Source: Rhodovibrionaceae bacterium
Lineage (GTDB): Bacteria > Pseudomonadota > Alphaproteobacteria > Kiloniellales > DSM-21159
Direction: 5' to 3'
Assembly (NCBI GenBank): GCA_028282405.1
Contig: JANQIA010000059.1
Span: 1-38,195 of the forward strand
Length of the DNA stretch: 38,195 nt
In this document: positions 9,411 through 18,543 of the stretch, piece by piece
How the letters are laid out: the number at the start of each line of letters is the position of its first letter
How positions within the stretch are numbered: position 1 is the stretch's first letter
Translations under genes and position numbers: made by a program
Notes under the pieces: generated by a model
Told to the model about the DNA's origin: nothing
Seen by the model: the letters and a program-made list of their open reading frames with translations, nothing else
Databases searched by the model: none

Positions 9411-10352
9411 CTAGACCGCTTCGAGGTCGCGGGCCATCCGTCGGCGCAGAGCCTCGTCCGGCAAGCGCCCGGTCATGGCGCCCATGTTCTCCTCCATGTG
9501 CGCGACCTGGGACGTGGCGGGAATGGCGCAGGTCACGGCCGGGTGGGAGACGATGAACTTGAGGAAGACTTGCGCCCAGTTGGCGCAGTCGATCTCGGCC
9601 GCCCAGCTTGGCAGCGGCTTGCCTTCCACCGGCGGGAAGAGGGCGCCGCGCCGGAACGGCCGATTGACGATCACAGCCAGCTTGCGCTCGGCCGCCAGCG
9701 GCAGCAGGCGCTGCTCGGCCTCCCGGTCGACCACGTTATAGGTGAACTGGACGAAATCGATCGGCTGAGTTGCCATGATCTCTGCCAGCTCTTCGTGGCG
9801 GCGCCCGTGGGACGTGGTGACGCCGATGTAGCGGACACGCCCCTCGGCCTTGTCCCGCAGCAGCGTCTCGAGATGGTCTTCCCAGCCCAAAAGATTGTGG
9901 ATCTGCATCAGATCGAAGCTTGGCAAACCCCAAAGGCGGCGGGAGTCGGCCATCTGCGCTTCGCCGGCGGAGCCACGCCGGGTCCAGACCTTGGTGGCGG
10001 AAAAGAGCGTCTCTTGTGGGCCGAGGCGCGCGAGGCCGTCGCCGACCACGGCCTCGGCCGAGCCGTACATGGGCGAAGAGTCGATCATACCGCCCCCGAG
10101 CGCGAAGAAGCGTTGCATCACCTCGCTGCGCTTCCTGCGTAGCGCCTCGTCCTCGCCGACGTTGAAGGTGATCCAGGTACCCATGCCGATGGTCGGCAGG
10201 GCTTCGCCGCTCGCGGGAATCGGGCGGGTGTGGATGGCACCCGTCGCGCCCGCCGAGAGCGGCAGGGCCGCGCCGAGGCCGCAGGCGGCCATGCCGGCGA
10301 GCAGGCTCCGGCGGTTCATCATGCCGTCGAACCGGCGAGAGGGGGAATCCAT
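9411..10352 (-). CDS. Aldo/keto reductase with Tat signal peptide
   Basis: A 313-residue NAD(P)H-dependent oxidoreductase of the AKR family. The N-terminus carries a twin-arginine signal (NRRSLLAG followed by a hydrophobic stretch ending near LSAGATGA). This implies export in folded form to the periplasm, unusual for a nucleotide-dependent enzyme. The catalytic Asp and Tyr are in MIDSSPMYGSAE, the Lys in SATKVW and the His in LMQIHNL. The start at 10352 is supported by GGAGGAAGG just upstream; a later start (MNRRSLL) is possible and would keep the signal. It is first gene of the leftward unit and diverges from the leuA leader. The substrate is unknown. Confidence 0.85.
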   Translation of the reverse strand: MDSPSRRFDGMMNRRSLLAGMAACGLGAALPLSAGATGAIHTRPIPASGEALPTIGMGTWITFNVGEDEALRRKRSEVMQRFFALGGGMIDSSPMYGSAEAVVGDGLARLGPQETLFSATKVWTRRGSAGEAQMADSRRLWGLPSFDLMQIHNLLGWEDHLETLLRDKAEGRVRYIGVTTSHGRRHEELAEIMATQPIDFVQFTYNVVDREAEQRLLPLAAERKLAVIVNRPFRRGALFPPVEGKPLPSWAAEIDCANWAQVFLKFIVSHPAVTCAIPATSQVAHMEENMGAMTGRLPDEALRRRMARDLEAV

Positions 10353-10449
10353 GCTGTGCCTTCCTCCGGGAGCCATTCAGTCTTTTGCTCTTGCCTCCGA
10401 ATGAGGATTGGCTTACCTAACAAGCAGGAAAAAGGCGAATTTTCGGTCG

Positions 10450-10569
10450 ATGAACCAGTGTCTGACCATTTCGAGCATCAACACCGCCCCGAACGGGCGC
10501 GCGGTGCTGCTCGACCTTTTCGCCCCTGAGCTTCCTCTCAGCGACCTCCTCCTCCTTAGCAACCCCTGA
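10450..10569 (+). CDS. leuL: Leucine-rich leader peptide of leuA
   Basis: A 39-codon ORF ending with TGA about 100 bases before leuA. It has 11 leucine codons, nine of them in the second half, including a run of four (codons 33-36, 10546-10557). The peptide ends LPLSDLLLLSNP. A leader peptide loaded with the regulated amino acid directly upstream of leuA is the hallmark of ribosome-mediated attenuation, known for branched-chain amino acid operons of proteobacteria. AAGG lies about 14 bases upstream of the ATG, so the ribosome-binding site is modest. Mutually exclusive stem segments overlap and follow the ORF. The gene symbol is by analogy with enterobacterial leuL; the peptide itself is not homologous by sequence. 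Confidence 0.82.
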   Translation: MNQCLTISSINTAPNGRAVLLDLFAPELPLSDLLLLSNP

Positions 10570-10633
10570 GCGCTACAGCCGCAAGAGCGGCAGGCGAGCA
10601 GGGGATGACGTGATCACGAGGGGCCAGCGCCCC
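10526..10633 (+). promoter_or_regulatory. Putative leuA attenuator (alternative stem-loops)
   Basis: Four segments can pair in alternative ways. CTGAG (10526-10530, segment 1) pairs with CTCAG (10537-10541, segment 2). Segment 2 can instead pair with CTGAG (10566-10570, part of segment 3). Segment 3 in turn, as CCCCTG (10563-10568), pairs with CAGGGG (10599-10604, segment 4) and encloses an inner hairpin, GCCGC-AAGA-GCGGC (10578-10591). A further hairpin, GGGGC-CAGC-GCCCC (10620-10633), follows. The leader stop codon lies inside segment 3. No run of T follows any of these stems, so termination may be factor-dependent or control may be at another level. The pairings are exact, but the 1:2 and 2:3 stems are only 5 bp. 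Confidence 0.55.
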
Positions 10634-10667
10634 AAGCCATAGCAGTCAGCTAAGAGGAGAACGCGCC

Positions 10668-12287
10668 ATGAGCGCCGAAATCGTTTCCAGCCAAACCAAG
10701 ACCAGCGTCGATCGCGACGCCTTCGCCGACTACGCCCGCCGACCGAGCGAGGACGGCTACGTCCGCATCTTCGACACCACCTTGCGAGACGGAGAGCAGG
10801 CGCCCGGCTGTTCCATGAACCTCGAGGAGAAGATCCAGGTTGCGGAGATGTTGGAGTCCTTGGGTGTCGACATCATCGAGGCCGGGTTTCCAATTGCTTC
10901 GAACGGCGACTTCGAGGCGGTCAGCGAGATCGCAAAGCGGGTGAAGACCTCCCAGGTCGCCGGTTTAGCCCGCGCGACGGAGAAGGACATCAATCGCGCC
11001 TGGGAAGCCTTGCAGCATGCGGCCGCCCCGCGCATCCACACCTTCATCTCCACCAGCCCGCTGCACATGAAGTACAAGCTGCAGATGGAGCCGGATGCCG
11101 TCCGCCAACGCGTCATCGACAGCGTCTCCATGGCGCGGAACTTCTGCGAGGATGTGGAGTGGTCTCCGGAAGACGGCACCCGCACCGAGCATGATTTCCT
11201 CTGCAGCTGTGTGGAAGCCGCCATCAAGGCCGGTGCCTCGACCATCAACATCCCGGATACGGTCGGCTATACGGTGCCGGAGGAGTTCTACGCCCTCATC
11301 GACATGCTGATGAACCGGGTGCCGAACATCGACCAGGCGGTCATCTCGACCCACTGCCACAACGACTTGGGCCTGGCGGTCGCCAATTCCTTGGCGGCGG
11401 TGCGGGCCGGTGCGCGGCAGGTCGAGTGCACCATCAACGGCATCGGCGAGCGGGCCGGCAACGCGGCCATGGAAGAGATCGTCATGGCCTTGCGCACGCG
11501 CCCCGATGCCATGCCCTACACGACTCGAATCGAATCGACGCACATCACGCCGGCGTCCCGGCTCTTGTCGACGATCACCAGCTTCTCGGTGCAGCCCAAC
11601 AAGGCCATCGTCGGGGCCAATGCCTTCGCCCACGAATCGGGCATCCACCAGGACGGCATGCTGAAGAACGCTCAGACCTACGAGATCATGACGCCGGAGT
11701 CGGTCGGCCTGCACCGCTCCAGCCTGGTCATGGGCAAGCACTCCGGCCGCCATGCCTTCAAGGCAAAGCTGGAGGAGTTGGGCATCGCGCTCAACGACAA
11801 CCAGCTCAACGACGCCTTCGTGCGCTTCAAGGACTTGGCCGACCACAAGAAAGAGATCTTTGACGAGGACATCATCGCCCTCGTGGAAGACGCCGCTCTG
11901 CGCCACAACGACGTCATCAAGTTCGTTTCGATGCATGTGAACTGCGGCAGCCACGGGCCGAACGTGGCCGACATCGCCCTCGACGTTCAGGGCGAGCGCA
12001 AAGAGGTGCGTGCCGAAGGGCAGGGACCGGTCGATGCGACCTTCGCGGCGATTCGCGAAATCGTCCCGCATGACGCGAGTTTGCAGCTCTATCAGGTGCA
12101 TGCCGTGACCGGCGGCACCGATGCGCAGGCAGAAGTCACCGTGCGCCTGGAAGAGGACGGCAAGTCGGTGAACGGGCAGGGTGCCGACTACGACACCTTG
12201 GTCGCTTCGGCGCGTGCTTACGTCAACGCTCTCAATAAGTTATTGGTAAAGCGAGAGAAAACAGCGCCCGAGGCAATGACGGCCTGA
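10668..12287 (+). CDS. leuA: 2-isopropylmalate synthase
   Basis: First committed step of leucine synthesis: condenses acetyl-CoA with 2-oxoisovalerate. The 539-residue product matches the bacterial LeuA form. The catalytic barrel contains DTTLRDGEQ (about 36-44), STHCHNDLG near 225-233 with the metal-binding HxH, and NGIGERAGN. The linker includes HESGIHQDG and GKHSGRHAF. The C-terminal leucine-binding regulatory domain (from about residue 400) is full length, so feedback inhibition is likely. AGAGGAG precedes the ATG. A leucine-rich leader ORF and alternative stems lie upstream, suggesting additional control by attenuation. A strong terminator follows about 50 bases after the stop, so leuA appears monocistronic apart from its leader. 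Confidence 0.96.

Positions 12288-18467: not shown

Positions 18468-18543
<76 letters not shown>

Follow-up and report, generated by a model that had tools for sequence, protein, structure and literature searches.

A putative leucine-sensing translational attenuator in the leader of leuA in Alphaproteobacteria

The DNA analysed (the window, 38,195 nt) came from an alphaproteobacterial assembly that is fragmented into 536 contigs and is 88% complete. The leuA gene for 2-isopropylmalate synthase, the candidate regulated gene, was located at 10668..12287 on the + strand (NF002087 and TIGR00973, both above cut-off), and mreB was the next gene. An oxidoreductase-like gene lay upstream at 9411-10376 on the strand opposite to leuA. 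The gap of 291 bases between these two genes contained the leuA leader and, presumably, the leuA promoter. The part of the gap 5' of the leader ORF (10377-10455) was almost identical in a relative of the same genus and may be the location of the promoter; no sigma-70-like match was found in this part. Further downstream in the window, a tRNA gene was present at 18468-18540 on the + strand (Rfam RF00005, 74 bits).

A Leu-rich leader ORF of 39 codons (MNQCLTISSINTAPNGRAVLLDLFAPELPLSDLLLLSNP) with a putative start codon was found at 10450..10569 on the + strand, and its stop codon UGA (10567-10569) lay inside a hairpin. A sequence-only reading of the window had described this ORF about 100 bases before leuA; its length, its four consecutive Leu codons and its distance (98 nt from the end of the ORF to the leuA ATG at 10668) were confirmed, while the count of 11 Leu codons had to be corrected to 10. 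The four consecutive codons, CTC CTC CTC CTT at 10546..10557 (+ strand), are the presumed stall site, and were followed by AGC AAC CCC TGA. Between the window and the same-genus relative, 10538-10636 was identical, and most of the ORF before 10538 had diverged. The sequence CCCCTGAGC was present twice at a spacing of 40 bases, at 10523-10531 and 10563-10571; the same-genus relative does not preserve the first copy, which is probably due to chance.

The coding signature was determined in 134 non-redundant homologous leaders, with 17 codons counted (-4 to -20). The leader frame had no stops in codons -4 to -20, and in 131 of the 134 leaders it stayed open over 30 codons or more, against 66 and 53 for the other two frames. 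Leu content over the 17 codons was 33.8%, compared with 13.3% in shuffled sequence. When the regions upstream of leuA in relatives were aligned, as the sequence-only reading had proposed, the Leu codons proved to be kept: codon -4 was Leu in 99% of the leaders (CTT or CTA), codon -6 was Leu in 91% (CTT, CTG, CTC and CTA all occurring), and codon -5 was Leu or Arg. These results indicated a genuine leader ORF, belonging to an RNA element that has copies across the Alphaproteobacteria. Many leaders ended in Leu-Arg-Leu, with CGA as the Arg codon, and not in Leu-Leu-Leu (e.g. L160 and L198). The choice of Leu codon was mostly CTT (44%) and CTC (30%) in the leaders and mostly CTG (54%, with CTT at 5%) in leuA.

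Folding placed a conserved hairpin, CCCCTGA...CAGGGG, at 10563..10604 on the + strand, with the leader stop codon inside it and with arms CCCCTG (10563-10568) and CAGGGG (10599-10604). The helix CCCCUGA:UCAGGGG covaried across species: compensatory changes from G-C to A-U occurred in 6 sequences, where the stop codon was then UAA or UAG, and variants with CCUCUGA:UCAGAGG kept the pairing. Double changes in the hairpin numbered 80, compared with 38 in shuffles, and none of 500 shuffles was as high. The loop varied in sequence and length; the CCCC:GGGG core was almost invariant. A second small hairpin, GGGGC-CAGC-GCCCC, was predicted at 10620..10633 (+ strand) and was identical in the same-genus relative.

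An attenuator with stems in the pattern 1:2, 2:3 and 3:4 had been proposed for this region. Compensatory changes were seen in its last stem, CCCCTG/CAGGGG, which is the stop-codon hairpin; the 1:2 and 2:3 stems were left without support. The segments CTGAG (10526), CTCAG (10537) and CTGAG (10566) are present in the window, but the first two read CCGAG and TTCAG in the same-genus relative, and the 1:2 and 2:3 stems were therefore rejected. Conserved, mutually exclusive antiterminator and terminator stems were not found for the proposed segments; the search of other alternatives was non-exhaustive.

Pro preceded the stop codon in 128 of the 134 leaders, which would suit a direct sensing of leucine through arrest of the nascent peptide at its Pro-stop end, as in TnaC. 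However, several loci swapped Pro for Leu and carried the compensatory stem change CCUCUGA:UCAGAGG, and the sequence of the peptide outside the Leu-rich end was not kept, even within the genus. Since the loss of Pro goes along with a compensating change in the stem, such an arrest peptide is unlikely and only a slim chance is given to it.

In the minimum-energy fold of the leader, 10549-10560 paired with 10649-10659, a decisive pairing that the sequence-only reading had not described. The 5' arm of this base stem (CTCCTCCTTAGC, 10549..10560, + strand), the predicted anti-Shine-Dalgarno strand, consisted of three Leu codons (CUC-CUC-CUU) plus the codon that follows, and the 3' arm (GCTAAGAGGAG, 10649..10659, + strand) included the leuA Shine-Dalgarno GAGGAG at 10654-10659. 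Since pyrimidine-rich Leu codons and purine-rich Shine-Dalgarno sites give some automatic pairing, partners were swapped between species as a test. In permutations that take no account of phylogeny, native duplexes between the Leu run and the ribosome-binding site were about 2 kcal/mol better than swapped ones in the first set (z -6.2; non-redundant -5.7), and a z of -5.9 was obtained in a second set, which came mostly from a class-wide search with a model trained on the first set without the ribosome-binding site. None of the permutations was as good as native in either set. Controls taken before the ribosome-binding site, in the coding region and upstream of the Leu run gave z from +0.2 to -3.0, a few of them reaching -2 to -3. 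The leuA starts in relatives were set by rule and a few were wrong; distance filters served to discard implausible spacings.

Exact hexamer complements showed the same tendency, with 13 in native pairs compared with 3.5 in swapped pairs in one set and 20 compared with 5.1 in the other. The surplus pairing was located upstream of the Shine-Dalgarno core, as expected for a helix selected beyond the Shine-Dalgarno itself. Both arms changed together between lineages, the combinations being CTTAGC/GCTAAG, CTTATC/GATAAG, CTAATC/GATTAG, CTGCTG/CAGCAG and CTTCGA/TCGAAG. In many loci the base stem was short, and its spacing from the hairpin was highly variable. These comparisons indicated a species-by-species match between the leuA ribosome-binding site and the Leu codons. 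That pyrimidine-rich Leu codons simply pair to some degree with any purine-rich Shine-Dalgarno, with no regulation involved, agrees with the fair pairing of swapped partners (about -10 to -12 kcal/mol); the swap tests nevertheless control for automatic pairing and still gave z near -6 in two sets, and the element is conserved over the class and tied to leuA, so that pure chance is hardly credible.

A DNA search of relatives revealed short, strong matches (identity up to 87-88%) in other families of the order; they spanned roughly 10542-10613, where the Leu run and the hairpin with its stop codon lie. The regions upstream of leuA (80 loci and relatives) mostly had the same block, composed of Leu codons, CTTA and CCCCTGA...TCAGGGG, usually about 40-100 nt before leuA. 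A covariance model (R1) was built from 65 sequences, and its E-values are rough. Among 289 genomes spread over the class, R1 had a match in 106 at E<=0.01. At E<=1e-4, 80 of 85 matches lay just upstream of a leuA orthologue. Three more (L161, L204 and L226) lay before a leuA recognised by BLAST on a contig ending shortly after, and in L196 (433-2097) and L231 (424-2094) the element preceded a distant LeuA family (NF002991/TIGR00970). All 85 matches thus preceded a gene for 2-isopropylmalate synthase, which was directly next except in two loci with a cupin-like gene between. L196 and L231 indicated that the element follows function, not gene lineage.

At least 85 of the 134 sampled genomes with a leuA orthologue carried the element. 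In the window's own genome, leuA was the sole clear R1 match (E 3e-17; the next was 0.015), and in a phylum-wide sample all R1 matches below E 1e-4 were alphaproteobacterial. No Rfam 15 covariance model matched over the leader, and tblastn of the leader peptide against plasmids gave no match. In the literature on Alphaproteobacteria no description of the element was found; an earlier description may exist.

Taken over the sequences compared, control of leuA by a Leu-codon leader is strongly supported. The pairing of Leu codons with the Shine-Dalgarno points to control of translation initiation and not of transcription termination, and the element is probably a translational attenuator of leuA that senses leucine and whose sensing codons would themselves be the repressor strand. 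With enough leucine, the ribosome would pass the Leu codons, stop at the UGA in the CCCCUGA arm and leave. Once the ribosome is gone, the CCCCUGA:UCAGGGG hairpin would form, and the freed Leu-codon run would pair at and just upstream of the leuA Shine-Dalgarno and block initiation. When charged tRNA-Leu is scarce, the ribosome would stall on the Leu codons, where it would shield the 5' arm of the hairpin as well as the anti-Shine-Dalgarno strand, leaving the leuA ribosome-binding site open for the translation of leuA. We infer that the ribosome stalls, how the steps follow one another, in which direction leuA responds and that the control is translational rather than transcriptional; the stall, the leucine response and its sign are taken from how leader peptides generally work.

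When the Leu/stop region was blocked in the folding, as a stalled ribosome would do, the predicted access to the Shine-Dalgarno of the window rose from 0.002 to 0.40. Over 148 loci, the mean predicted access rose from 0.25 to 0.43, with 0.30 for an upstream control, and the gain was above 0.1 in just 77 of the 148 loci. Comparison and folding both placed the downstream Shine-Dalgarno in a pairing that a stalled leader ribosome would disrupt. Some leaders had just two or three Leu codons near the end (e.g. Leu-Arg-Leu), which counts against the attenuation model.

Translation attenuators of this general layout are known from ermC and cat-86, where stalling of the leader ribosome exposes a ribosome-binding site that is otherwise masked; for cat-86, the stall site and the masking strand overlap. 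In ermC and cat-86, a drug together with the nascent peptide brings about the stalling, whereas the stall proposed here would presumably come from missing charged tRNA-Leu at the codons. In the leu attenuator of Escherichia coli (leuL), a leader peptide with Leu codons senses leucine before leuA and acts on transcription via an intrinsic terminator. The alphaproteobacterial element shares the Leu-rich leader peptide with leuL but had no intrinsic terminator that could be found.

The leader might likewise act on transcription, its translation deciding whether polymerase stops before leuA, via an unusual intrinsic terminator or via Rho on the C-rich leader. In favour of this are the C-rich leader, the strong hairpin and the fact that leader-peptide attenuators of amino-acid operons are usually transcriptional. 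Within the same class, leader peptides of amino-acid operons have been described as transcription attenuators for Caulobacter ilvBN and Sinorhizobium trpL (PMC4117421, PMC10117765), and the main text of these two papers makes no mention of leuA as a target; papers on alphaproteobacterial leaders described ilv, trp and trpS leaders, and not leuA. However, no T tract and no site resembling an intrinsic terminator was found on the + strand of the window, and T runs of 5 or more between the hairpin and the ATG occurred in 3 of 124 loci, for which reasons an intrinsic terminator was rejected. The sequence-only reading had likewise noted that no T tract follows the last stems and had doubted a classical intrinsic terminator, and both points held. 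Transcription attenuation also does not predict a Leu run that matches the ribosome-binding site, and is considered unlikely, though with a real if minor chance. Under translational attenuation, the premature 3' ends near 10605-10640 that had been suggested as a readout are not expected to be the main output.

The closest relative in kind, set beside the alphaproteobacterial element by its published description, is the actinobacterial LEU element upstream of leuA (Seliverstov et al. 2005, PMC1262725), in which a Leu run pairs with the leuA Shine-Dalgarno to form the base stem. Both have a leader peptide with a run of Leu codons before leuA, and both have a base stem of the Leu run and the leuA Shine-Dalgarno with internal structure within it; a terminator is not described for the LEU element either. 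They differ in phylum and in the internal structure, which is a pseudoknot or an alternative hairpin in the LEU element and the stop-codon hairpin CCCCUGA:UCAGGGG here (nested structures being modelled). The authors of the LEU element left its mechanism open and favoured a regulatory protein because the effects of leader mutations were unlike classical attenuation (PMC1262725). A switch at the level of translation might explain part of these non-classical leader mutants.

A corresponding explanation for the alphaproteobacterial element is that a protein or small molecule binds the conserved hairpin and thereby controls the base stem, the leader peptide being secondary. Besides being the favoured idea for the LEU element (PMC1262725), it would account for the near-invariance of the CCCC:GGGG core, for which the translational attenuation model alone gives no explanation. 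However, neither the sequence nor the length of the loop is constant, compensated changes do occur in the core, and the strong Leu-codon signature would be left unexplained; such a binder is regarded as very improbable.

If translational attenuation is true, amino-acid attenuation can act on translation initiation, with sensing codons that double as an anti-Shine-Dalgarno, and the mechanism of the LEU element, open since 2005, becomes testable with a clear prediction. The element would also represent a conserved small ORF and an RNA family absent from Rfam in a major bacterial class that includes Bradyrhizobium, Methylosinus, Thalassospira and Rhodoblastus. The broader reading is favoured with some reserve: the element would be a class-wide and apparently unnamed alphaproteobacterial switch, with sensor and repressor in the same 12 nucleotides, which persists where LeuA is of a distant family or where a cupin-like gene comes before leuA, and which corresponds to the actinobacterial LEU element through either homology or convergence.

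The two loci with an intervening gene, L200 and L207 (reverse complement), belong to one alphaproteobacterial family and carried a small cupin-like gene (118 aa, assigned from its fold by eye and not by family search) between the element and leuA. The cupin-like ORF started 73 and 86 nt after the first base of the hairpin in L200 and L207, respectively. In both loci the Leu codons matched the ribosome-binding site of the cupin-like gene instead of that of leuA, the pairs being CTTAGC/GCTAAG in one locus and TCCTAATC/GATTAGGA in the second.
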